Source: a virus. Taken from it: a DNA stretch of 64,000 nt. The position numbers and the translations under genes were made by a program. The notes below the pieces were generated by a model. The model saw only the letters and a program-made list of their open reading frames with translations, was not told where the DNA came from and searched no databases. The stretch is from positions 1 to 64,000 of IMG/VR virus record IMGVR_UViG_3300031576_000032; one strand, written 5' to 3'. Position 1 is the first letter of the stretch; each line of letters opens with the position of its first letter. Shown in pieces: positions 5,415-20,463 of the stretch.

Positions 5415-5852
5415 TTATCGTCTCGGGGCCAGGGGAGAAACCCCGTTAGCAAGAACGTCGGCGAACTCTCCAAAGTTAATCCTTTTATGCCAGATAATGG
5501 CGTTCGACATTAACGTCTCCGCGTCAACCCTTCCTACGAGATCGACCGCCCCCCGCCAATCGAACAACAGGTAGTAGTCCCCCGCTTGTAGAAGAAGCCA
5601 GACATTCCCGCACGTCCGGCCCCGGTCTTGTATCCATCGGCGCTGGTGCGGAACGTACTTCGTGATCTGAACGACGCCTTTCTCAGGGAGTTTCACTAGG
5701 ATCTTCAGCTCGATCCATCCGGTTCCCCTGGAACCAGGGAGTCCAAACGAGATATCGGGGACGCCGAGCGTTACCGCGTCCTCATGCCGGCACGCGGACC
5801 ACTTCGTTCCCATTCCGGTTTTCAAGTAAAGCCAAAGAGTAGACTCTTTCAT
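5415..5852 (-). CDS. PD-(D/E)XK nuclease, VRR-NUC/resolvase-like
   Basis: A 145-residue nuclease. The core reads GVPDISFGL then GTGWIELKI, matching the PD...ExK catalytic pattern, preceded by an N-terminal helix with Glu (MKESTLWLYLK) and followed by QRRWI and VWLLLQ, as in VRR-NUC and phage Holliday-junction resolvase-like proteins. It probably resolves branched DNA during replication and packaging. The ATG at 5852 overlaps the polymerase stop (ATGA). Confidence 0.8.
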   Translation of the reverse strand: MKESTLWLYLKTGMGTKWSACRHEDAVTLGVPDISFGLPGSRGTGWIELKILVKLPEKGVVQITKYVPHQRRWIQDRGRTCGNVWLLLQAGDYYLLFDWRGAVDLVGRVDAETLMSNAIIWHKRINFGEFADVLANGVSPLAPRR

Positions 5853-7774
5853 TCTTCCCCCCAGTTCTTCTGGAGTTTCGCATCGACGAGAATCGGCACC
5901 GAGAACGGGATCGACGTCTCCATAATCCGAACGGACTCGGCCCATGCTTCTTTCCCGGCCCTTGTCCGCGGGACGGACGACCCTAAATCGTCATGGACCG
6001 TGATATGTGGAATGATGACATCGAACACCCCGGCCTCGAAAATGTCGACCATCGACTTCTTCATCAAGTCCGCCGCGGTCCCCTGGATCACAAAGTTAAG
6101 AGCTTTATGGGTTCCGGTCCGGCGAACGCCGGACCGGGGGGGCCGTTCCCCGTCCGCGCGGGCGCGTTCCTGGGCCGTTCTGACGGCCGATAACGCCCCG
6201 TCGCGGGTCGGAAACGGTCCCCCGAACGCCCGGGACAGGTCCCAATCGGAAGGCTCCCATTCTTCGAACCTCCGACGCCGTCCTAGGATCGTCTTTACCC
6301 ATCCGCGCTCGTTAGCTCGGTCCGACGCGACCCGTAGCGTGTTCCGGGCGAATGGGAACGCGGCGTAGTATTTGTCGAGGAACCCTTGGGCCTCATCGAC
6401 CGGGAGCTTCAGTTGCGCTGCGGTTTTCTTCGTTCCCATCCCGTAGATCACCCCGAAGTTAATCGTCTTCGCTTTCTGCCGGCCTGCTTTTCCGACAAGT
6501 CCCGCACGGTCCGCGCACTGCTGATGAAAGTCGATCTTCGGGTTCTTCTGATACTCCGACCGGAACTCGGCCGCGCCTTCTCCCAAAGCATAATGAGAAA
6601 AAATCCTAAATTCTGCCTGGTTGTAATCGGCCTTCCCCCAGTCGCATCCCTCTTCTGGGATAAAGATCGATCGGCACAAAGGGCCAAGGACCGCATCGCG
6701 TGCCGGGATGAACTGAAGGTTTGGATGGGACGACGAGAACCGTCCCGTAACGGTCCCATACTCGTCGGACTTCATCGGGTTAAACGACCCGTGGATTCTT
6801 CCGTCGACGAGTTGCTCCTGCATCTGCCCGACAAGAAACGTCGAGATGAACTTATCGGTTCCGCGACACTCAAGGATCATCTTCGCAACGGAATGATTTA
6901 CCGTCTCGAGCCACGGCTTCGTGAACGACGGGGCATCGGTTTTCGGGGTGCGTGGGTACGGTATACCCAAAGAATCGAACATCCCCCCGAGCTCCCGCGC
7001 GTTCCATACGGAGATGTTTTTCCCCGCGATTGCGTCGAGCCCGGCCTTCGTCTCGACGAGTTTCTTCCGAAACGCGACGATCGAGTCGTCAAGTTTCTTC
7101 GTATCGATCCGCACCCCGTTCTGCCTCATCCGAAGAACGAGAGGAAGTAGACGCGACTCAAGGTCGAATAGTTCGGTCATCCCCTCCGCCGCGAGCAACT
7201 TCTCCTGAAGAGGAAGAATCTTTAACGGAAGAAGAACGTCCTGGATCGCGTACTTCGCGACGACGGACCCAGGGAGTCGCCAGAGGTGTTTCTTCGGATC
7301 GCCCTTGTATCCCCGCCGCGCGCATTCTTGCGTTATCTCATCCTCGGCCTTCGACTCGCCCTCGAGGTACCGAACCGAGATATCCCCGAGGTTGTAGAAC
7401 CCCTGAAGATTTTCGTTCACCAAAGGTTCAGCGATCTGTACATCCGCCCACGGGCCAACGATTTTCACTCCGGCCTTCTCGAGGTAGTCAAAATCGTAGA
7501 GAAGGTTCGCGCCGACTTTCCGCTGCGACTTCCGACCGAGTTCACGGCCGAGCCACTTGAGGACTTTTTTCGGGTCGAGGTTCTCGCCGTCCTCGTGTCG
7601 GATCGGGTAGTAGTTTGAGAACCCGTCGTCGGTCGCTACCGCGACGCCTGCGATATACCCATCGCGATACGTCCCCGGACCTTTCGCTACGAGGTCGTCG
7701 TCTCGCGTCTCGATGTCCACCGCGATTAATTTTGCAGACGATAAATCGGGAAACAGGTTATCGACCTTCTTCAA
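5849..7774 (-). CDS. Family A DNA polymerase with 3'-5' exonuclease domain
   Basis: The replicative polymerase, 641 residues. An N-terminal DEDDy exonuclease domain shows Asp20/Glu22 (DIE), NLLYDFD near 90-96 and YAIQD with Asp179. The polymerase domain has motif A DYNQAEFR (Asp383), motif B RQKAKTINFGVIYG (Arg432, Lys436, Phe440, Tyr444) and motif C VHDDLG. Phe440 corresponds to the nucleotide-discriminating Phe of E. coli Pol I. No 5'-3' exonuclease domain is present, as in T7-like polymerases. It starts with TTG overlapping the dCMP deaminase stop (TTGA), with no ATG nearby. Confidence 0.95.
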   Translation of the reverse strand: MKKVDNLFPDLSSAKLIAVDIETRDDDLVAKGPGTYRDGYIAGVAVATDDGFSNYYPIRHEDGENLDPKKVLKWLGRELGRKSQRKVGANLLYDFDYLEKAGVKIVGPWADVQIAEPLVNENLQGFYNLGDISVRYLEGESKAEDEITQECARRGYKGDPKKHLWRLPGSVVAKYAIQDVLLPLKILPLQEKLLAAEGMTELFDLESRLLPLVLRMRQNGVRIDTKKLDDSIVAFRKKLVETKAGLDAIAGKNISVWNARELGGMFDSLGIPYPRTPKTDAPSFTKPWLETVNHSVAKMILECRGTDKFISTFLVGQMQEQLVDGRIHGSFNPMKSDEYGTVTGRFSSSHPNLQFIPARDAVLGPLCRSIFIPEEGCDWGKADYNQAEFRIFSHYALGEGAAEFRSEYQKNPKIDFHQQCADRAGLVGKAGRQKAKTINFGVIYGMGTKKTAAQLKLPVDEAQGFLDKYYAAFPFARNTLRVASDRANERGWVKTILGRRRRFEEWEPSDWDLSRAFGGPFPTRDGALSAVRTAQERARADGERPPRSGVRRTGTHKALNFVIQGTAADLMKKSMVDIFEAGVFDVIIPHITVHDDLGSSVPRTRAGKEAWAESVRIMETSIPFSVPILVDAKLQKNWGEE

Positions 7775-8256
7775 CGATCATCGCCTTCTTTTGATTCATC
7801 CTCGATCGTCCAGGGGATACCAAGCGATGTGAACAACTCCTTCGACCTCTTCGACTTTTGATAGTCGATCTCCGCGTGGACGGCGACGATCCCAACGTTA
7901 ACGAGAAGCTTCGCGCAGTCGTAGCACGGGAACGCGGTGCAGTACACTTCGGCCCCGTCGATTGGCGGACCGTGCCGCGCGGATTGCGCGACCGCGTTCG
8001 CTTCGGCGTGGACGGTCCGGACACAGTGAGCAGTTTCTTTATACACGATCTGATCGGAGATAGTTGCTCGTTGTTCTATTTCGTGTCCGACGTCGTCGCA
8101 ATGAGGCGCCTTCGACGGGGACCCCGAGAATCCAGTCGCAAGGACTCGTCCGTCGCGGACGAGTATCGCACCTTTTTTCCCTCGGTTACACGTCGACCGA
8201 TCCATCACCGCCCGGACGATCGAAAAGTAATATTCCTTCCGCGTCGACCGATTCAA
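7771..8256 (-). CDS. dCMP deaminase
   Basis: A 161-residue zinc-dependent deoxycytidylate deaminase converting dCMP to dUMP. It has HAEANA (His83, Glu85) and PCYDC (Cys111, Cys114), the catalytic zinc site, and the SGSPSKAPHC insert typical of dCMP rather than cytidine deaminases. The chosen TTG start overlaps the upstream TGA and has a GGAGG eight bases before it. It sits directly between the ThyA-fold enzyme and the polymerase, so it feeds the pyrimidine branch of this operon. Confidence 0.9.
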   Translation of the reverse strand: MNRSTRKEYYFSIVRAVMDRSTCNRGKKGAILVRDGRVLATGFSGSPSKAPHCDDVGHEIEQRATISDQIVYKETAHCVRTVHAEANAVAQSARHGPPIDGAEVYCTAFPCYDCAKLLVNVGIVAVHAEIDYQKSKRSKELFTSLGIPWTIEDESKEGDDR

Positions 8257-8981
8257 AATATGTTCCTCCCTTCGAGGTCCTTCGCGAACGCGTGAAGCGA
8301 TCCGATGAAATGGACGAACCGCGACGGCGTCGCATTGATTTCCGATGCGACGTGTTGAAGAAGCCGAGTCGTCAGGTAAACATCCGATGCGAAGAACTTC
8401 ATGAAATCGCACGACCTTTGGTTGTAGATCAATGTCAGGTTCCCGTTCCGGAGGACGAATTGGTACGATATCGAGCACGGCACCCGGTCGCGCCCGCCCC
8501 AGTTCATCATGTCTTGGTGGACGTCGTACATCGTCATAATCGCTTGCCGGGTCGTCGGACGACGTTTCAACTCGTCGATGACGTACGGAAGTTGCGCTTG
8601 CCATCTCTCTCCGTACGAGTAAGAGAACTTCCCGTCCCGAATAAACTTTCCCCATTTCCCTGAGTCGAGTTTCCAGGATTCCCCAGGATTCAATGGTCCC
8701 CGGGGACCAGCGTTTTCCCGAGTTCCAAGGAGCCGTTCGACCTCTTCCCGTTTTGCCCATTCAACGTTCCCGTTCAGATACTTCATCATCTGCTCAAGCC
8801 GGACGTTATCAAACGAGGCCGTCAAGGAGTAAGCGTAACCTGTCAGTTCGATCGCTCGGTACCCGGGATCGTCCCCAACGAATTTGTCTTGCACGGTCTC
8901 GGTGTGGTACCGGACACCCATTTCAAACAGGTCCCGCTCGACCTCCTTCACCATCTCGACGGGGTTCTGGTAGATCCTCAT
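8253..8981 (-). CDS. ThyA-fold pyrimidine hydroxymethylase/methylase, dCMP type suspected
   Basis: This 242-residue protein has the thymidylate synthase core: GGRDRVPCS with nucleophile Cys169, YNQRSCD with phosphate-binding Arg189, and SLHAF with His230. At the position that aligns with the dUMP-reading Asn of ThyA (E. coli Asn177) it has Asp200 (FFASDVYL). T4 dCMP hydroxymethylase carries Asp there, and that change is known to favour dCMP. The likely reaction is therefore C5 hydroxymethylation or methylation of dCMP with a folate cofactor. The Glu58 equivalent is unclear (Gln or a shifted Glu). Ordinary thymidylate synthase remains possible. Confidence 0.75.
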   Translation of the reverse strand: MRIYQNPVEMVKEVERDLFEMGVRYHTETVQDKFVGDDPGYRAIELTGYAYSLTASFDNVRLEQMMKYLNGNVEWAKREEVERLLGTRENAGPRGPLNPGESWKLDSGKWGKFIRDGKFSYSYGERWQAQLPYVIDELKRRPTTRQAIMTMYDVHQDMMNWGGRDRVPCSISYQFVLRNGNLTLIYNQRSCDFMKFFASDVYLTTRLLQHVASEINATPSRFVHFIGSLHAFAKDLEGRNIF

Positions 8982-9865
8982 CGCGTCGCCTTGTCCTTCC
9001 GGAACACGAGGATCGTCTGGTACAGCGGCGGCTTCTTCCCCGTCTTCTTCTCGTACGTGTTGAGGAACATCGTCGTTGGGTAATGTCTCAAGATCGCCGT
9101 TCCCTCGTGCGTAAGCCCGAGTTCGGTTAGGAGATCCCCGATCTTCACGTGAAGAAGAAACGGCTCGCCCTTACGCATCATATCCTTGACAGAGACGACG
9201 AACCGGCCGTTCTTCTTCATCCGGGCGATGCACTTCTGGTAAATGTCTCGGATCGCGGCCCAGTACGCGTCGTTCTCCCGAAGGAGGCCGAGGTTCGCAT
9301 ACCGTTTGTCGTACCTCATCTCCTTCGGTTGTTTCTTCATATCTTTTTCGGCATATCCGAAGAAGCTCTCTCGGACGTCCCCTGAGTACGGCGGGTTGTT
9401 GACGACGAGCGAGAACCGAGGAAGATCCGCGATCACCGACTCGATCTCTCGGGCGTCTCGGTGAACGACCCGGAACTTCGCGCCATTCGAGACCGCGGCG
9501 GCGCGGGCGAGGTTCGCTTCGACGACGTCGAAGAACTCGATCTCACACCCCGCCGCGTTCCGGCCCATCCGGAGCGCCTCGACGGGAGTCGTTCCCGCCC
9601 CGACCATCGGATCGAGGACCCAGTCGTTCTTTTTCGTAAACGTCTGGATCGCCCACCGAGCGACATGGAGCGGCGTCTTCGCCGGATGCTTCTTTTCGAT
9701 CGGATCGTAAAACGATTTCCTCTCGAGCCGGGAGTAGTTCCGTCCGTCAGGACGAATCAGCTCCCCGAGAAACGGCTTCGAGTATTTGCTAACGCCGACG
9801 TAGTCCGTCGGCATATTCGGTCCGGCGTTCAATAACTGGACCGGTTCGATCTCGTTCTTGTCCAT
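8978..9865 (-). CDS. DNA amino-methyltransferase (N6-adenine or N4-cytosine)
   Basis: A 295-residue SAM-dependent methyltransferase. Motif I is VLDPMVGAGTT (near residue 82), followed by an acidic residue in GCEIEFFD, and the catalytic motif is NNPPYSG (near 156), in the order seen in the gamma/zeta classes. NPPY favours N6-adenine, while the DPMVGAGTT element resembles the N4/N6 family (PF01555). No partner nuclease is adjacent, so it probably protects phage DNA from restriction. ATGA overlap with the next gene. Confidence 0.85.
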   Translation of the reverse strand: MDKNEIEPVQLLNAGPNMPTDYVGVSKYSKPFLGELIRPDGRNYSRLERKSFYDPIEKKHPAKTPLHVARWAIQTFTKKNDWVLDPMVGAGTTPVEALRMGRNAAGCEIEFFDVVEANLARAAAVSNGAKFRVVHRDAREIESVIADLPRFSLVVNNPPYSGDVRESFFGYAEKDMKKQPKEMRYDKRYANLGLLRENDAYWAAIRDIYQKCIARMKKNGRFVVSVKDMMRKGEPFLLHVKIGDLLTELGLTHEGTAILRHYPTTMFLNTYEKKTGKKPPLYQTILVFRKDKATR

Positions 9866-9877
9866 CCGCTCCCTCCC

Positions 9878-11398
9878 TTAAAAGTTCGACAACACCTTTC
9901 CCGACGGGACCGACGGGACCGACGGGACCGACGGAACGATCGGCGCGGGTTTCACATCTCTCGGCTTCGGTTGTGGTTTCTTCGGTTCAGCCGGAACTGG
10001 CGGAGTCTCCAGGGGGACCTTTCTCGGTCGTCCCCGGCCGCGCTTAGGAATCGACTGGAACTCCGCGACGGACACCGCGGCGCGTTCGACCTTCGGCCTC
10101 CGTTCTTTCTTCGGCTTAGGCGGTTTGTACGTCGGATCGATCGCGTTATCCCAACGCGTCAAGTCCTCGGGTTCGACTCTCATCGGCAGGTGGCACCGAA
10201 ATAGCATCGTGCACTCTTCGCACGCTTTCGGTTGATTCGAGTACCCGACGTTTTCGCAGTACCACTGTTTCGCGTCGTCGACATATCGGTCGGGCGGCAA
10301 AAATCGATGTCCCGACGACTCGAACTTCACACCGTTGATATGAGCGGCGATCTGTTTTGCGATGTACGCGTTGAACTGGACGGGCATCGCTTTCCCCGTC
10401 TGCTTTACGATCGTCGCATCTTTCGTGTGGTTCCATTCGCCTTTCTCGTTCAGGATCGTCCCGTAGAAGATGAAGTCGTCGGGGAACCCCTGGATTCTCG
10501 CGCGCTCGCGGATCGTATACGGAAGGCACCGCTCCCCGTGGATCGCCGGAGCGCCCCCGGTTAGGACCGCCGCGTGCCCGTCCCAGTGATTCCGGTATGT
10601 CCCGATCCGTTTCTTGTAGGACCCGTCTGCCGTCTGGTACGGAAGGACCGTCCCGGGACGGCCGTCCTTAAAGAACTTCTGGACCTCGCGCCACGTCGCC
10701 TTCTCCCCGCGTTTCGAAAAATGCATCGCTCGGTCACATCGTCCATCGAGGACGTGAGGGTCATGATTCGGAATCGAATGGCTCCCCTTCTTTTGGGGAT
10801 CGGGGAGATCCCCGATAAGAGTCTGGACCGTTTCCTTGTTGTCATACTCCCCGGGCCGAAACGCGAACTTCTCCTTCTTCAGCGCCCCGATCAGGAAGAA
10901 CCGCTTTCGAAACCGTTGGACGTTTCCGTAATGAAAGTTCGACACCCACTCAGGGAACAGATCGTACTCCGGAAGAAGCGACGCATACTTCTCCATCGAG
11001 AACGCGATGAACGATTTCGGAAGATCGTCCATCACGAAAAACCTCGGCTTCACCCGCGCGACGAGATCGACGAACAAAGGAATGTCCCCGGGGTCGTCGC
11101 CACGGTTCGAATTCATTCCATCGAGTTGCGAAAAGTTCCCGCACTCTGGGTGTCCGAAAGCAACGTCGATCGTCGGTAACGCCGGGGCCTCCTCGATCGA
11201 ATGGACAAAGAACGCCCCCGGGAAGTTCTCAAGAAACGTATTCTTCCCGTCCTTGTCTTTCTTGTGGTAGTACTTCCGCCACTCGATATTTCCGAGGACC
11301 TCGAAACCCCCCATCCGCGCTCCGACTAACATTGAACCGATCCCGCACGTTAACCCAACCGCCTTCAACTTCTCAATACTCGGCGGTTTCCTCGGCAT
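9878..11398 (-). CDS. C5-cytosine DNA methyltransferase-like protein with AT-hook tail
   Basis: 506 residues. The N-terminal 350 contain C5-methyltransferase motifs: I (GLTCGIGSM), IV (GHPECGNFS, Cys86), VIII (VQRFRKRFFLIG), IX/X (ERARIQGFPDDF, GKAMPVQFNAYIA). The motif VI ENV is replaced by DDL (124-126), which is unusual because that Glu stabilises the flipped cytosine. The tail holds four cysteines (YC...ACEEC...RC), an AT-hook (RGRGRPRK) and a C-terminal VPS repeat encoded by near-identical gaccgacgg units. It may methylate or otherwise modify cytosine; the DDL change makes the exact activity uncertain. Confidence 0.85.
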   Translation of the reverse strand: MPRKPPSIEKLKAVGLTCGIGSMLVGARMGGFEVLGNIEWRKYYHKKDKDGKNTFLENFPGAFFVHSIEEAPALPTIDVAFGHPECGNFSQLDGMNSNRGDDPGDIPLFVDLVARVKPRFFVMDDLPKSFIAFSMEKYASLLPEYDLFPEWVSNFHYGNVQRFRKRFFLIGALKKEKFAFRPGEYDNKETVQTLIGDLPDPQKKGSHSIPNHDPHVLDGRCDRAMHFSKRGEKATWREVQKFFKDGRPGTVLPYQTADGSYKKRIGTYRNHWDGHAAVLTGGAPAIHGERCLPYTIRERARIQGFPDDFIFYGTILNEKGEWNHTKDATIVKQTGKAMPVQFNAYIAKQIAAHINGVKFESSGHRFLPPDRYVDDAKQWYCENVGYSNQPKACEECTMLFRCHLPMRVEPEDLTRWDNAIDPTYKPPKPKKERRPKVERAAVSVAEFQSIPKRGRGRPRKVPLETPPVPAEPKKPQPKPRDVKPAPIVPSVPSVPSVPSGKVLSNF

Positions 11399-12042
11399 TA
11401 GTACTCGCTCCGTTGCCGGAACCTATTGACTTCGGACTTCTTGAAGTACAACTCGAACACGGCATCCGCAGACATCCCGACGGTCCAAGACAGAAGACCA
11501 AGTCGCCCGACTGACTGGACGACGAGATCCTCAAACTTGTCTACGTCGGTTGAAACGTGCGACTGTTTCCACGGTTTATTCTTCAAGCAGTTCATCGCGA
11601 GGCCGAGGGTTTCGACGACCTTCCACGCAGAAAACATCACGACCGTTTCGCTATCCAACCCGGTATTTTTCCCCGGAATAATGATATCGAGACGATCTTT
11701 TCCGAGGTTATCGTCGACAACGTCGGCCGGGCCGAGTCCGATCTCGATCACGAGTTCGACGAGAAAATGCCAGGCGTCGGCGACTTCCTCCTTACAGTGG
11801 ACGGGATCAGCCATCGACTCAATCGCTTCGGCGAGTTCCTCAGTTACTCGCCAGGCCAGATCTTTCAGGAAGTATTGGCATTTCGGGTCGTCGATATGAA
11901 ACGTCGCGGGTAGAATCCCCCGACCGATCCCGGCTTTTCCCTCGATCTCGCTGTACTTCTTCGACAATTCCCGCTGCCGGTCGAAAATCATCTCGAGCCG
12001 GTCGCCTGTCGGCTCGGGGGCGGTCGCGTCGTTCACGTTCAT
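11398..12042 (-). CDS. All-alpha dCTPase/dUTPase (MazG-like NTP pyrophosphohydrolase)
   Basis: 214 residues with the helical NTP-pyrophosphatase signature of dimeric dUTPase/dCTPase proteins: FDRQRELSKKY, then EELAEAIE and KEEVADAWHFLVEL (EExxE...ExxD metal site). It hydrolyses dUTP and possibly dCTP to monophosphates, supplying dUMP/dCMP to the deaminase and the ThyA-fold enzyme and keeping unwanted bases out of phage DNA. The ATG at 12042 overlaps the asparagine synthetase stop (ATGA); its TAA overlaps the methyltransferase ATG (TAATG). Confidence 0.8.
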   Translation of the reverse strand: MNVNDATAPEPTGDRLEMIFDRQRELSKKYSEIEGKAGIGRGILPATFHIDDPKCQYFLKDLAWRVTEELAEAIESMADPVHCKEEVADAWHFLVELVIEIGLGPADVVDDNLGKDRLDIIIPGKNTGLDSETVVMFSAWKVVETLGLAMNCLKNKPWKQSHVSTDVDKFEDLVVQSVGRLGLLSWTVGMSADAVFELYFKKSEVNRFRQRSEY

Positions 12043-13406
12043 GTCGCGTAGGCCTTTCTGAAGGCGTCGATACACGCCATTCGCCACTCGATCTTCTTCT
12101 CCCCCCTGGACCCTTCGATCTTCAGGGGAACCTTCTCACGATGTAGAATAGAAAGTGGAACGATGTCCGCGAACGCTTCCTTCAATACTTCTTTGTGTTT
12201 CCTGCGTTCCCACGGGAGCGCGAGCGCGTAGTTCACGATCGGAAGGGCGAGGAACGGGCACCGGAGTTCGACCATCGAGAACATCATCGTCCGGTCAAGC
12301 CGGGGGAGGTGGTAGTGGATCAACTCGTGAAACACGTCGGACTTTTGCGAGTCATACTCGGCCGTGCGACGGTATCCTCCGAACAACTCGTCGGCCCCGT
12401 CCCCGGAAAGGACGACGTCAACCCCGGATTCTCGAACGGCCTTTCCTAGGTCGATTTGGGCCATCACCGAGCCGAGATCGACGGGGCACTGGTGGATTTG
12501 AACCGCGACTTCTTTTTCGATCTCGACTGGTCGGTTGATCGCGATCATCTCGATTTCGCTTCCGGGGAACCGAAAGTCCAGATGTTTTAGGAAGTCGGCT
12601 TCGTCGTTCTCAACATGAAAGACTTTGAAGTCGGTCCGGACCTTCTTCATCATCTCGAAAACGATCGTTGAGTCGAGTCCGCCGGAAAGAAGAACCCCGA
12701 CCGGAACATCCGACACCATTCGATTTCGGACAGACTCCTCGACGGCCGCACGAAGGTCCGTTCCAGTTGGGTATAACCCAAGTCCATACTGGTACGATTC
12801 CTTAAGCCGTCCGAACTCATCGTAGACTAGGATCGATCCAGGCGCAATCGAATGGATCTCGTTCCAGGGAGTCGACCGATCGTAACAATATCCGAACCGC
12901 GCGACCCCGCCGAGGTACGTTTCGTTCAACGTCGACGGCCCGGCCTCGAGCAAAGGATCGATCTCGGACGATATCGCAAGCGCCGGAAGCGTTCGGTAGT
13001 AAAGCGGCTTCTTCGCGAGCGGATCGGTCACGACCGTAACGGTCTTCTTCGACGTGTCAATGAATACAAACGACCAGAACCCGTCGAACCCGGCAAGACA
13101 TTTCGGTCCAAACTTCTCCCACATCGCGAGGACGACGGCGAGGTCGTTCTTCGCCGCCGGGTCATACTTTCGGAAGTTGAACACTTCCCCGACCATCAAC
13201 CCATACAGGTTCTTCGTACCGTGACGCATCGGCTGGTCGAACGTCTCGCTCAGCCCTTGAATCGGGAGCCGGGCGTGCGAGACGTATACGAGACCCGGTT
13301 GGAAGAACCTCGCGGTCGTCGTCCGTTTCCCCCGGTGCTCCAACTTTGCGGCCATCCTTTCGATGACGGATTTGTCTTTCCCAAAATAGACGTTAATCCC
13401 GCACAT
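12039..13406 (-). CDS. asnB: Asparagine synthetase-like glutamine amidotransferase
   Basis: 455 residues with the class II amidotransferase/synthetase plan of AsnB. Cys2 is exposed after Met removal (MCGIN); RLPIQGLS and GEVFNFRKY match glutaminase-site regions; the synthetase domain has LLSGGLDST (ATP pyrophosphatase loop) and LSGDGADELFGGY. It is shorter than bacterial AsnB (about 550). It could make asparagine, or transfer ammonia to an activated carboxylate on a base or other small molecule. Its place inside the nucleotide/base-modification operon (14-bp overlap with the kinase, ATGA with the dCTPase) makes a specialised role plausible. Confidence 0.85.
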   Translation of the reverse strand: MCGINVYFGKDKSVIERMAAKLEHRGKRTTTARFFQPGLVYVSHARLPIQGLSETFDQPMRHGTKNLYGLMVGEVFNFRKYDPAAKNDLAVVLAMWEKFGPKCLAGFDGFWSFVFIDTSKKTVTVVTDPLAKKPLYYRTLPALAISSEIDPLLEAGPSTLNETYLGGVARFGYCYDRSTPWNEIHSIAPGSILVYDEFGRLKESYQYGLGLYPTGTDLRAAVEESVRNRMVSDVPVGVLLSGGLDSTIVFEMMKKVRTDFKVFHVENDEADFLKHLDFRFPGSEIEMIAINRPVEIEKEVAVQIHQCPVDLGSVMAQIDLGKAVRESGVDVVLSGDGADELFGGYRRTAEYDSQKSDVFHELIHYHLPRLDRTMMFSMVELRCPFLALPIVNYALALPWERRKHKEVLKEAFADIVPLSILHREKVPLKIEGSRGEKKIEWRMACIDAFRKAYAT

Positions 13407-13881
13407 AACCCAGAACCGTCATCCCTCTCCTCTTCAGGTTCTCGATCACGACGTCATATCTCATCGCGATTCGGACGATCTTATCCGACACGACTTGAAC
13501 GTGATTGTCTGGTTTGTAGCCTTTTTCGGACGACAGCCGCGCAAGCTTCTCACGAGCGTGAGCAATTAACGTATCGACCGACGGCCGGCAGTACACGACG
13601 AAGAACCCTTTCTCAACGAACCGCCGGGCCGTGTCGTCGATCTCTGATTGCTCGACAAGAAGTCCGTTCCGGACGACCGATCCGTACACTTGTTCGGAGA
13701 TGAACGACGCCCGGTCAAGGACTTTCCCGTACCCCCGGAACTGCGTCGCGAACCGACCACGAAGGTCCTCCGCGTCCTTAGGCGGACCTCCGGCGTGGAT
13801 AATCTCGAGCCCGTGCTTACCGGCGAGGATCTTCGCGATAGTTGATTTCCCGGCCCCGTCGGGGCCTTCGATTATGATCAA
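13393..13881 (-). CDS. Deoxynucleoside monophosphate kinase (thymidylate kinase-like)
   Basis: A P-loop kinase of 162 residues with GPDGAGKST at 6-14, LDRASFISEQVY as the DR-containing nucleobase/phosphate segment, and an Arg-containing lid region. It resembles thymidylate kinases and phage dNMP kinases, which return (modified) dNMP to dNDP. It starts at TTG with a good ribosome site (aaggag). Genomic pairing with the dCMP-type ThyA enzyme suggests it may phosphorylate the modified monophosphate. Confidence 0.75.
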   Translation of the reverse strand: MIIIEGPDGAGKSTIAKILAGKHGLEIIHAGGPPKDAEDLRGRFATQFRGYGKVLDRASFISEQVYGSVVRNGLLVEQSEIDDTARRFVEKGFFVVYCRPSVDTLIAHAREKLARLSSEKGYKPDNHVQVVSDKIVRIAMRYDVVIENLKRRGMTVLGYVRD

Positions 13882-16718: not shown

Positions 16719-18230
16719 TTAGAAGTCCTCCTTCTTTTCGATCGGGGGCACCCCGAACGGTTCATCTTGCTTCGCCGGGGCCGGTATCCCCCAACACCGG
16801 ACAAATCGACCGTTCACTTTGAACGCCGACGTTTTCGCTTTCGCTTTAACGAGATAGTTCCACGCGTCTCGTGGATGCACCCGAAGTTTTCGTTTTTCCA
16901 TGAATGATAATAGGTCGCTCGACCGGAAGTACACGAATCCGTCTTCCTGGAACGGCATCCCCCTGAGAAGATCGGACTTTTCCTTCGCCGGGGCGCGGTC
17001 GACGCAGAACTGTTCCATCATAAATAGAAACTGCCCCGCCGTACTCGCGTCGTCTGGGGCGTGGACTTCCTCGACTTTTTCGAGAAGCCCCCCGATGATA
17101 TCGTCCCACGATTCTCGCTTTATTCGTCGTTGCATCTGGTTCGTCTGTTCGACAACGACGTTCACGAACTTGGTCTGGCTCATAAGGATTTCGACCTCCC
17201 CGAGCCGGACCCGTTTCCCATTGACGTTGATGATCCAAGTCGGCGGGTCTGTAAGGATCTTCGTTAGCCCGTCGAGCGACACGCCGGGGTCGGTCGACGA
17301 TCCTGAAATCCCGAACTTCCGCCGGACACACATCGCCCGGTTGCACACCTCAACGATCGGTGAGTCCTTGCACGTGTAAAGGTATTCCTTCCGACTTAGC
17401 GATTTTATCGTCGCTTCAACTTCGGTCCCGGGGAGCGGGGGCTTCATATACTTCCGGTTCAATTCTCCGAGTTTCTCTTGCCATGCGTCCCCATACCTCT
17501 TTTTGCAATATACGCCGAGGTTGAATAACGCTTTGTTTCTTGACCCCTCCGGAAACCCGACTTTTGCGAGATGCTGTAAGCATGGGGGGCCGCTTTCAAG
17601 GTCCGGGTCTTCCGGAACCTTTATCCTCGCGAATGCCTCGACTGTCGTCGCCTTCTCGTCGGCGTAGTCGAGGAACGCGTCCGGCGGTAGCGGTTCCCCG
17701 CCCCGAATCGCATACCGAGTCGTCTCAGCCCCGCCGAAGTACGGCATATTGATCCACGATCCGCAATCATCGTCGCCCGCGAGTTCGGCCTGTTTCGGGA
17801 ATATCTCGCTCGACATATACCCGAGGACGACGGCGAACTCCGCAAGCCGGTCCCGGACAAACCCCGCCGGGGCCGGTTCGGAGAAGAATAGGTAAAGGTG
17901 CGCCCCCTTTGATTTCGTTTGGCAAGGTACCAGGGGGAACCTGGCTTCGACGATTTTCTTCTCTAAGGCCGAAAGGTCTAAGTCGTACACGTCAATGTCG
18001 ATCGCGCCGAATATGCACGTTCCGTCGTCTCGAATAGGAACGATCCCGATTCCTTTCTTTCCCTCAAGATGCGATTCCCAGTGTTTCGCCGTTGCCTTCT
18101 CTTTAATCGTTTGCGCTCGTCCCCCGAGCTTTCCCCGTTTTCCTTCTTTTTTCGTCCCGACGAGATAAGTCCCGTGAGCCCTTTCGAGCCCACGGAACCT
18201 CTCGTAGAAACGATCCGCGATCCCCGCCAC
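16719..18230 (-). CDS. AEP-superfamily DNA primase (TOTE/PrimPol-like)
   Basis: 503 residues starting at GTG. The N-terminal half has archaeo-eukaryotic primase features: AIDIDVYD (metal-binding DxD), SKGAHLYLFF (motif II with His) and WINMPYFGG, as in primases of the TOTE/PrimPol group. A Cys-containing segment follows (YTCKDSPIVEVC...MC), then a C-terminal domain rich in charged helices that may resemble a winged helix. It should make primers for the family A polymerase; no DnaG-type primase is visible. Confidence 0.8.
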   Translation of the reverse strand: MAGIADRFYERFRGLERAHGTYLVGTKKEGKRGKLGGRAQTIKEKATAKHWESHLEGKKGIGIVPIRDDGTCIFGAIDIDVYDLDLSALEKKIVEARFPLVPCQTKSKGAHLYLFFSEPAPAGFVRDRLAEFAVVLGYMSSEIFPKQAELAGDDDCGSWINMPYFGGAETTRYAIRGGEPLPPDAFLDYADEKATTVEAFARIKVPEDPDLESGPPCLQHLAKVGFPEGSRNKALFNLGVYCKKRYGDAWQEKLGELNRKYMKPPLPGTEVEATIKSLSRKEYLYTCKDSPIVEVCNRAMCVRRKFGISGSSTDPGVSLDGLTKILTDPPTWIINVNGKRVRLGEVEILMSQTKFVNVVVEQTNQMQRRIKRESWDDIIGGLLEKVEEVHAPDDASTAGQFLFMMEQFCVDRAPAKEKSDLLRGMPFQEDGFVYFRSSDLLSFMEKRKLRVHPRDAWNYLVKAKAKTSAFKVNGRFVRCWGIPAPAKQDEPFGVPPIEKKEDF

Positions 18231-18242
18231 GGGCCGCAGAAC

Positions 18243-19061
18243 CTAGAACTTATCGGCGTGAACCACTTCTTGCGTATCCGTGGCCTCGTCGACCCGAATC
18301 CGCCCGCCCCGCGCAAGAGCCTGAAGCGCCCGGGCTTCCGCCACGACCGCCTCGTCGCCCTTCCCGAGGACCCGTTCCTTTTCGATCTTGACGCCGTGCC
18401 AGGACCCCTTATCGTTCGACTCGGCGACCGTCGTGATCCGCCACGCGTGCGCGAACGTCGGCGGGCAGAACGGCTTCCCATTCTTCCCTTCGAACCGAAT
18501 CATTGACATCGCCGTCACCCAGTTCCGGGACTTCTTGATCTGGGTCGATGTAAGCGAAAGAACGATATTCCGCCGCCCGTCAGGGGTCAACTGAATGCAG
18601 TAGTGGTACCTCGTATCCGCGAGGTAGTTGTCCCCCTTCTGAAACCGCCCCGAATCGTCCCGCTCCAAATCGGCGAGGTTGATCTCATCGGGCCGGTACG
18701 ATCCCTTGAATCCCCCGCCGTCGTCGCGCTGACCCCATTCGACGTATTTCCTCTCGAAGTGTACCGGAACGAGAACGACGCCTTTCTTTCCGTCGTACAC
18801 TTCCCCCGTCGCCCCGTTCAGGAAGTCCCCGGCCGACGCGCCCTTGATGTACTTGTCCGAGTCGCGGTCGACCTGGGGCGACATCTTCTGGAGAAGCGTC
18901 AAAAACGGCTGGGCGTAACAATCCTGATCCGCCCCTTCGAGCCCCGCGCCCGCGTCGCGCTCGAACGACAACACGTCCGTCGACGGGACGCCCTTATCTG
19001 CTGCCTTCGAAACCGCCCTCGAGTCGTTTTTCGGAGACGGCTTCTTCGCTGCCTGGGCCAT
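18243..19061 (-). CDS. Conserved phage protein, candidate ssDNA-binding protein
   Basis: 272 residues with a disordered Lys/Ala-rich N-terminus and an acidic C-terminal part. The middle (GVVLVPVHFERKYVEW, ADTRYHYCIQL, NIVLSLTSTQIKKSRNW) is beta-rich and recalls proteins common in phage replication modules. No SSB is otherwise found in the window, and the position next to the primase makes an ssDNA-binding role attractive, but no OB-fold motif can be proved by eye. Confidence 0.6.
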   Translation of the reverse strand: MAQAAKKPSPKNDSRAVSKAADKGVPSTDVLSFERDAGAGLEGADQDCYAQPFLTLLQKMSPQVDRDSDKYIKGASAGDFLNGATGEVYDGKKGVVLVPVHFERKYVEWGQRDDGGGFKGSYRPDEINLADLERDDSGRFQKGDNYLADTRYHYCIQLTPDGRRNIVLSLTSTQIKKSRNWVTAMSMIRFEGKNGKPFCPPTFAHAWRITTVAESNDKGSWHGVKIEKERVLGKGDEAVVAEARALQALARGGRIRVDEATDTQEVVHADKF

Positions 19062-19084
19062 GTTTCTTTCTCCTTTTGTTTGGG

Positions 19085-19648
19085 TTACTTCTTCGGCTGC
19101 GTGATGATCGATTCGTCGTACTGAAACACCCCGAGGAGTTCCATCGGGAGGACCGTCCCGTCCGCAAGTTGCTCACGAACGAACGCCGATAGCGTCTGCC
19201 CGTGGACGGACTCTTTCCGGTCGTGAACGATCCCTTTCTTCTCGAGTTCCTTGTCAAGGATCTTCGCGGCGGACTCTTCCCCGCGACCGAACTTCGCGAC
19301 GACCTCCATCTTGATTAGCGACCCGTGGCCGTTCTTCCGGAGCCAGGCGAACGCTTTTTCCTTCCGGTCCTCGGAAATTGACGCCTTAACCGTTTTCTTG
19401 ATGTCGATCTTCGCCCCGTTCTTCAGGGTAAACGAGTCGACCCCGGCCTCGAACATCAACGACGGAAGGACCTCCGTCCGGATAATCCGGAGCACCGCGT
19501 TTGCCTCGTCGAGCTTCTCCGACAGCGTCGAGACTTCGTCCTCGGCCGCGAGCTGCGCAACGGCGATCGTCGCAAGTCGCCCGAGGAGTTCTTCTGTCAC
19601 CCCGACCGACCGATCTTCTTCGAAGTCGAGTGCGGACTTCTTCGCCAT
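19085..19648 (-). CDS. Conserved phage replication-module protein
   Basis: 187 residues from the ATG at 19648. A leading helix/coiled coil (LAAEDEVSTLSEKLDEANAVLRII) is followed by a conserved-looking domain (DSFTLKNGAKIDIKKTVKASI...AFAWLRKNGHGSLIKMEVVAKFGRG...VHGQTLSAFVREQL). Similar proteins occur beside exonucleases and primases in other phages, without an assigned role. Confidence 0.6.
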   Translation of the reverse strand: MAKKSALDFEEDRSVGVTEELLGRLATIAVAQLAAEDEVSTLSEKLDEANAVLRIIRTEVLPSLMFEAGVDSFTLKNGAKIDIKKTVKASISEDRKEKAFAWLRKNGHGSLIKMEVVAKFGRGEESAAKILDKELEKKGIVHDRKESVHGQTLSAFVREQLADGTVLPMELLGVFQYDESIITQPKK

Positions 19649-19650
19649 AG

Positions 19651-20463
19651 TTATTTCCCCTTTCCAATCGCTTCTCGAGCGATCCGTTTCGTGTCCGGCG
19701 CGAAGTCGGTCTTCGGCCCGGCGACCCATTCAAGCCACCCCTGGTCCTCCTTAACGACGACCGAAAGAAGTTTCCCGTTGTGTTTTCCGAACCCAACGAC
19801 GGTTTCCCCTGCGCCGTTTTTCTTAAACTTCCCGTCGACGTCAACCCGGTCCGACGGAAACATCTCGGCAATCGACCGAGGGATCAGGGGGATATCGGGG
19901 TAAGCTTTCAGTTGTCCCCGAAGAACCTCAAGTGTCGCCCGCGCGTCATCAATCGCCGAGTGGGTCTTCCCTGGATATTCGGGGCCGACGTACCGCGCGT
20001 GAGCGGCTTCGAGAGTCCTCGGCTCGCGCGTCCGGAAAATCGTGAATGCGTCGATAAACCGAGTCGCCGCAGCCCAGTCGTGGAACCACTCGGAGTGCCC
20101 GATCCGCCGGTATTCGGCCGATAGCACCGGGATATCGAATGAAATCAGGTTGTACCCGACGACGTCGGCTCCAGACACGAGGTCGGTTAAGTCCGCGGCG
20201 ACGTCGACGAACCTCGGAAGGTCCCGAATATCGTCGTCGGAAATCCCATGAGCTTTCGTCGCGCCCGGTTCAATCGGCACCATTGGATCGATGCGTTGGC
20301 AGAATTCGATCGGGTCGCCGTTAGGAAAGATCCCATAGATTCCAATTTCGACGATCCGCGCGTCCCAAGGCCGCGCCGACGTCGTCTCGAGATCAAGCGA
20401 TAAAAGCGGCCGATCGAGGACGAACGGCCACGGATTCTCGGGTTTCGGTTTCCGGGGGGTCAC
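19651..20463 (-). CDS. DnaQ-like DEDDh exonuclease with ExoX-type C-terminal domain
   Basis: 270 residues from a GTG. Exonuclease motifs: LLSLDLETT (ExoI), VVGYNLISFDIPVL (ExoII), HSAIDDARATLEVL (ExoIII, DEDDh His). The C-terminal domain VGFGKHNGKLLSVVVKEDQGWLEWV matches the small domain seen after DnaQ/ExoX exonucleases. It could proofread, process recombination ends or degrade host DNA. The GTG overlaps the stop of the 36-residue gene upstream; in-frame codons further up are shadow. Confidence 0.85.
   Translation of the reverse strand: MTPRKPKPENPWPFVLDRPLLSLDLETTSARPWDARIVEIGIYGIFPNGDPIEFCQRIDPMVPIEPGATKAHGISDDDIRDLPRFVDVAADLTDLVSGADVVGYNLISFDIPVLSAEYRRIGHSEWFHDWAAATRFIDAFTIFRTREPRTLEAAHARYVGPEYPGKTHSAIDDARATLEVLRGQLKAYPDIPLIPRSIAEMFPSDRVDVDGKFKKNGAGETVVGFGKHNGKLLSVVVKEDQGWLEWVAGPKTDFAPDTKRIAREAIGKGK

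Follow-up and report, generated by a model that had tools for sequence, protein, structure and literature searches.

Does this virus make an altered cytosine, and if so by what chemistry? The question is raised by eight minus-strand genes running from position 13881 to position 5849 of the window, the 64 kb stretch analysed here out of a 70,187-base IMG/VR record of a virus of bacteria. An earlier note had read positions 7771–13881 as a T4-like pyrimidine set suggesting a modified cytosine. The enzymes that it listed are present, but its list omitted three further genes, encoding an AsnB-like enzyme, a C5-MTase-like protein, and a methyltransferase related to N4/N6 DNA MTases (MT1).

Organization of the gene block

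The record encodes terminase, portal, tape measure and major head proteins. Within the block, neighbouring genes overlap or are separated by 14 bp or less (Table 1), in agreement with the earlier description of the genes as all coupled. Two of the earlier assignments are borne out, dCMP deaminase, whose translation contains the HAE and PCxxC motifs, and all-alpha dCTPase/dUTPase, for which the dUTPase_2 model PF08761 scores 27.5 bits (cutoff 22.9) and an EExxD metal motif is present (KEEVADAWHF). The dNMP kinase of the earlier note stands as a P-loop kinase through its thymidylate kinase match, but the assignment is weakened by the lack of any Pfam or NCBIfam model scoring above cutoff. The deaminase likely starts at the TTG at 8256, which overlaps the stop codon of the thymidylate synthase (TS)-like gene and has a Shine-Dalgarno-like GGGAGG upstream (8265–8270); for the dCTPase, the start may be an ATG at 12042 that overlaps the stop codon of the AsnB gene.

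Table 1. Genes of the block, listed in order from position 13881 to position 5849.
Gene product	Position (strand)	Profile matches (E)	Features
P-loop (d)NMP kinase-like protein	13393..13881 (-)	phrog_761 thymidylate kinase 1e-11; weak CMP kinase models	
AsnB-like glutamine amidotransferase	12039..13406 (-)	PF00733 2e-40; GATase_6/7	Cys2; SGGLDS PP-loop; GDGADELFGGY
All-alpha dCTPase/dUTPase (dUTPase_2)	11398..12087 (-)	PF08761 5e-6; phrog_12184 8e-26	
C5-MTase-like protein	9878..11398 (-)	PF00145 1e-16	Cys86; motif VI MDDLP; Lys336 (codon 10391-10393)
MT1, Rossmann methyltransferase related to N4/N6 DNA MTases	8978..9865 (-)	PF01555 2e-19	
TS-like, putatively dCMP-directed enzyme (E-type)	8253..8981 (-)	PF00303 Thymidylat_synt 6e-15	242 aa
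dCMP deaminase	7771..8256 (-)	PF00383 2e-17; phrog_174 7e-36	
Family A DNA polymerase (PolA)	5849..7774 (-)	PF00476 2e-63	Coupled to deaminase; also in L002

The order of the block is kept at a related locus, L002, at 39–62% identity (with a weaker deaminase match), and because the order is conserved we do not regard the block as a chance assembly. At the same locus, C5-MTase and MT1 are fused into a single 751-aa protein (L002:5749-8004). PADLOC and NCBIfam searches returned nothing beyond generic MTase, TS and asparagine synthase names. Elsewhere in the window, a primase gene at 16719-18230(-) matches the TOTE conflict-system archaeo-eukaryotic primase domain, and an adjacent gene pair at 18243-19729(-) matches the Pam3 phage gp34 and gp33 families.

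Residues of the TS-like enzyme

The AF2 model of the TS-like enzyme has the TS fold (pLDDT 93, pTM 0.92), and the enzyme carries an Asp at the pyrimidine-reading position, as the earlier note had claimed. This residue, Asp200 (codon 8382-8384), is aligned to E. coli Asn177 and T4 Asp179 and does not vary among 84 members of the clade or in the enlarged E-type set (85/85); an Asp is also found in all 67 alignable members of a second clade, the H-type described below. Given the invariance of Asp200, dCMP is the likely substrate. Cys169 (8475-8477), Tyr123, Arg189, Asp192 and His230 are retained, and Trp110 aligns with Trp80/Trp82. The Glu58 equivalent, called unclear in the earlier note, can be assigned to Glu79 (8745-8747), which HHalign pairs with Glu60 of T4 gp42 and Glu58 of E. 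coli ThyA and which is conserved in 84/85 E-type relatives. HHalign was used for this residue; a 153-sequence MAFFT alignment misplaced T4 Glu60. A candidate from a by-eye alignment, Gln64, was rejected since profile alignments and a conserved xExxER helix give Glu79. Judged by these alignments, the window enzyme retains the folate-chemistry set of Glu79, Trp110 and Asp192.

The position of His147 is occupied by Ser170 (Ser or Thr in the clade), and the protein is short at its C-terminus, with 12 residues beyond His230 and without the ThyA folate-closing tail. Arg166 (8484-8486), three residues before the Cys, is invariant (85/85); Tyr121, two residues before the catalytic Tyr, is also found in 85/85, a conservation that is partly due to a search pattern. 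The signature of dCMP-hydroxymethylases (dCH) consists of Asp or Glu at Cys-3, for water activation, and Ser or Thr at Tyr-2 (PMC6400193). With Arg166 and Tyr121 at both signature positions, the TS-like protein is not filed as a dCH member; it may work in a similar way to that group.

Asp200, Arg166 and Glu79 were absent from the patterns that retrieved the E-type loci, and Lys336 of the C5-MTase was in no pattern, but the search patterns partly dictated how conserved motif VI and Tyr/His121 appear. Since the counts are drawn from related, non-independent contigs that were partly pattern-retrieved, we take the residue statistics as support and not as proof.

Partners of the enzyme across viral contigs

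Eighty loci were retrieved starting from the TS gene, and 84 TS loci were compared for partners; dCTPase is present in 71/84 and deaminase in 42/84. In reciprocal scans, a dCMP-type TS accompanies the C5-MTase at 39/40 loci, MT1 at 43/44 and AsnB at 79/86, whereas only two of seven unrelated C5-MTases from the same scan have a TS-like gene. AsnB is present in only 20/82 E-type loci, so that an amide step would not be universal. Six loci (L230, L240, L241, L242, L247 and L264) have close AsnB relatives and no TS-like gene detected in the fetched range. Our literature search found no description of a TS paired with AsnB in phages.

Many of the TS genes found in the reciprocal scans belong to the H-type, whose enzymes have His at the Glu79 and Tyr121 positions, with Asp200, Arg166 and Cys169 unchanged. 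The clade includes L168:6375-7133, with about 520 relatives among viral contigs, and its TS genes are coupled to those for AsnB and dCMP deaminase. A 60-protein tree separates the E- and H-type enzymes together from those of T4, E. coli and Mosigvirus with support of 98/96; as drawn, the H-type is a single clade lying inside the E-type, and the outgroup branches are long. Among 46 dereplicated H-type loci, AsnB is present in 44, mostly 0–30 bp away from the TS, the deaminase, which follows behind, is present in 42, and C5-MTase is present in none. Because AsnB adjoins the H-type TS, it appears to be tied to the TS product, and a housekeeping role in asparagine supply is unlikely.

In most E-type loci without AsnB, C5-MTase or MT1, the slot before the TS is filled by phrog_13667, whose function is unassigned (members include L003:7159-8004; L320:4033-4926, Muddy gp47; and L321:3823-4884, Zuko gp75). 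This family occurs in 49/82 E-type loci and the AsnB/MTase set in 25/82, never both together, and it lies directly upstream of a dCMP-type TS in 45/48 loci. Comparison of its profile with the TS family pairs a Cys with Cys169, an Arg with Arg189 and an Asp with Asp200 (probability 88, controls about 0.1), and these pairings, in which the family's Cys, Arg and Asp are invariant, make it look like a diverged paralogue with the TS fold. Because the core is shared while its partner is exchangeable, a pathway with further modification of the TS product is supported.

The cultured phages Muddy and Zuko (a Streptomyces phage) carry a sister TS clade in a core gene order as in the window. Gp46 of Mycobacterium phage Muddy (L320:4929-5702; NC_022054.2) is an H-type TS with the Asp, and Muddy also carries, ordered as in the core of the window block, genes for thymidylate kinase, dUTPase and dCMP deaminase; this gene content suggests that Muddy DNA may hold modified cytosine. 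MT1 has the motif NNPPY in the window and often NGTPY in relatives. A fold search with its AF2 model (pLDDT 84) returned hundreds of Rossmann MTases, including amide N-methyltransferases (9l4q, AerE), which is no more than a hint.

Proposed routes to an altered cytosine, and known systems

The genome evidence supports well a cytosine-modification operon, and we consider it probable that the block acts as one at the nucleotide level, in the steps below; most likely, the virus builds an altered C and puts it into its own DNA. The dCTPase would convert dCTP to dCMP, whose C6 would be attacked by Cys169 of the TS-like enzyme while Asp200 reads N3/N4, and C5 would receive a substituent. The retention of Glu79, Trp110 and Asp192 makes a one-carbon unit donated by methylene-tetrahydrofolate the most likely one. 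The kinase would re-phosphorylate the product, the deaminase would drain unmodified dCMP towards dUMP/dTTP, and PolA would incorporate the modified dCTP. The AsnB-like enzyme would then amidate either the modified base or the modified nucleotide, and the C5-MTase-like protein and MT1 would provide optional further steps. Modification of dCMP at C5 is very probable, its folate dependence is slightly favoured, and an amide on the final base is put forward tentatively; gene order, homology, residue patterns and co-occurrence were observed, and from them we infer the substrate, the C5 chemistry, the order of the steps and the amide. If all cytosines were 5-substituted, the C5-MTase would have no substrate, unless the substitution is partial or the enzyme acts on the modified base. 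Against this reading are the absence of the dCH signature, a top solved-structure match that is flavin-dependent, and the weak kinase match.

A more specific form of the same reading, possible but speculative, is a widespread phage pathway to an amide-bearing cytosine without CmoA. The TS homologue, in which Arg166 replaces the water-activating Asp, would attach a group bearing a carboxylate to C5, perhaps by capturing the exocyclic methylene with an amino acid in the manner of MnmEG on tRNA; the AsnB-like enzyme would amidate this group, and the Lys-type C5-MTase and MT1 would act on the modified base.

An alternative source of an amide is that C5-MTase and AsnB form a CmoX/CmoY-type pair, in which carboxy-SAM from the host would give 5-carboxymethylcytosine in DNA and AsnB would amidate it with glutamine-derived ammonia, while the TS-like gene would serve a replacement that is separate or partial. 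Lys336 of the C5-MTase lies in motif X at the position of M.HhaI Asn304 and CmoX Arg350, and is Lys in 41, Arg in two and Asn in none of 43 clade members. In our alignment this position is Arg in the CmoX of Synechococcus phage S-B43 and its TurkishDelight counterpart, and Asn in Dcm, phiD12, Hbo4908 and HCTV16. It holds the carboxylate of carboxy-SAM in CmoX, is Lys in engineered M.MpeI N374K, and is Asn in ordinary C5-MTases (PMC12783734); a carboxylate near C5, on either the cofactor or the target base, is therefore likely. AsnB-like ligases are also frequent at CmoX loci, the second largest ligase cluster having a glutaminase domain as in the window; CmoA is typical but not found in every catalogued CmoX contig, and host CmoA is enough in E. 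coli (PMC12783734). However, searches with TIGR00740 and a phage-CmoA HMM, which detected both positive controls (S-B43 and TurkishDelight), found no CmoA in the window record, 14 relatives, the C5-MTase loci or any other scanned locus, some of these records possibly being incomplete. The usual C5-MTase motifs are recognisable, but motif IV is HPECG rather than SPPC and motif VI has Asp rather than Glu; the CmoX catalogue rule is SPPC with Arg350 (PMC12783734), where the window protein has HPECG with Lys. The motif VI Asp, which a search pattern favoured, suggests an unusual target. At the H-type loci, moreover, AsnB accompanies a dCMP-type TS without any C5-MTase. The window thus resembles S-B43, which also has an AsnB-like enzyme close to a C5-MTase whose Asn304 position is basic (PMC12783734), and differs from it in these motifs, in Lys for Arg, in the missing CmoA, and in a glutaminase-domain AsnB linked to a dCMP-type TS. 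We consider the CmoX/CmoY pair unlikely; the linkage of the C5-MTase to the TS gene favours, without proving, a carboxylate on the target base. Streptomyces phage TurkishDelight, whose gp123-125 (L093:6670-10098) are adjacent CmoX-like, glutaminase-type AsnB-like and CmoA-like genes, an arrangement in keeping with such a pair, has them together with ParB-like genes and offers a cultured representative of the candidate CmoY cluster.

It is rather improbable that the TS-like enzyme is a flavin-dependent, AfhB-like dCMP 5-hydroxylase, which would make 5-hydroxy-dCMP without a methylene and leave the hydroxyl to be decorated by later enzymes. Such 5-hydroxy-dCMP synthases belong to the TS family (PMC13390438), and those encoded by Mosigvirus phages (9iqc/9iqu, titled riboflavin-dependent monooxygenase / phage HY126 dCMP hydroxylase) are nearest to the window enzyme by sequence, profile and fold, sharing the dCMP-reading Asp and short C-terminus. 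HHalign gives E=6e-24 for the Mosigvirus hydroxylase against 9e-17 for ThyA and 5e-16 for gp42, and a fold search against solved structures gives Z scores of 23.0 for 9iqc, 22.4 for 9iqu, 22.1 for MilA and about 20 for ThyA. The top match hardly differs from MilA, however, which lies within about 1 Z unit, and the Mosigvirus enzyme is without equivalents of Glu58, Trp80 and Asp169, having Phe, no Trp, and Asn where the window enzyme keeps Glu79, Trp110 and Asp192. No paper on the flavin site of an AfhB-type dCMP hydroxylase was found in our literature search.

A dCMP methylase as in phage XP12, with 5-methylcytosine as its product, is very doubtful. A single Asn-to-Asp change is stated, in work cited in PMC8670742, to convert a TS into a dCMP methylase, and the window enzyme retains the folate residues and not those for hydroxymethylation; but it lacks the C-terminal tail with which TS is sealed for hydride transfer, so plain methylation is less favoured, and a methyl group leaves AsnB nothing to do. 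A divergent thymidylate synthase, the alternative raised in the earlier note, here taken to make dTMP beside MTases that are ordinary anti-restriction enzymes and an AsnB that is an amino-acid supply gene, agrees with the name given by Pfam, PHROGs and NCBIfam but is highly improbable, since canonical ThyA has Asn177, His147 and a C-terminal tail where the window enzyme has Asp200 (as in every relative), Ser170 and no tail, its partners are dCTPase, deaminase and kinase-like proteins, and AsnB and the MTases are near-obligately linked to dCMP-type TS genes.

The preferred reading, nucleotide-level modification of cytosine, is supported by MetaGPA, where contigs with an Asp177 TS, an altered position 147, and dCMP deaminase and pyrophosphohydrolase neighbours, all features common to the window, were linked to modified cytosine (PMC8670742). 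In contrast to the window, the partner characterised there is a carbamoyltransferase, and the searched text of that paper does not mention asparagine synthetase or methyltransferase (PMC8670742).

The block shares with T4 gp42, gp56, gp1 and cd the dCMP-reading Asp, the Cys nucleophile, the Glu60 equivalent and the short C-terminus, together with dCTPase, deaminase and a kinase-like partner. In contrast to T4, the equivalents of gp42 Asp145 and Ser94 are Arg166 and Tyr121, the operon includes AsnB, two MTases and a family A polymerase, and no glucosyltransferase was found among the scanned genes. The earlier proposal of a T4-like modified cytosine therefore holds for a dCMP-directed enzyme and its partners and not for T4-type hydroxymethylation, and the T4 label is too narrow for this operon. 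Its parts resemble those of T4, but the key enzyme is without the T4 hydroxymethylation residues and lies beside an amide-forming enzyme, a combination that we did not find in the literature searched. To our knowledge, the starting handle of a phage cytosine modification is a hydroxymethyl, hydroxyl, methyl or carboxymethyl group; a TS-AsnB module shared by many uncultivated phages would extend this range by a further handle chemistry, probably carried out on nucleotides, and would bear on restriction evasion, on type IV defence and on virome sequencing.
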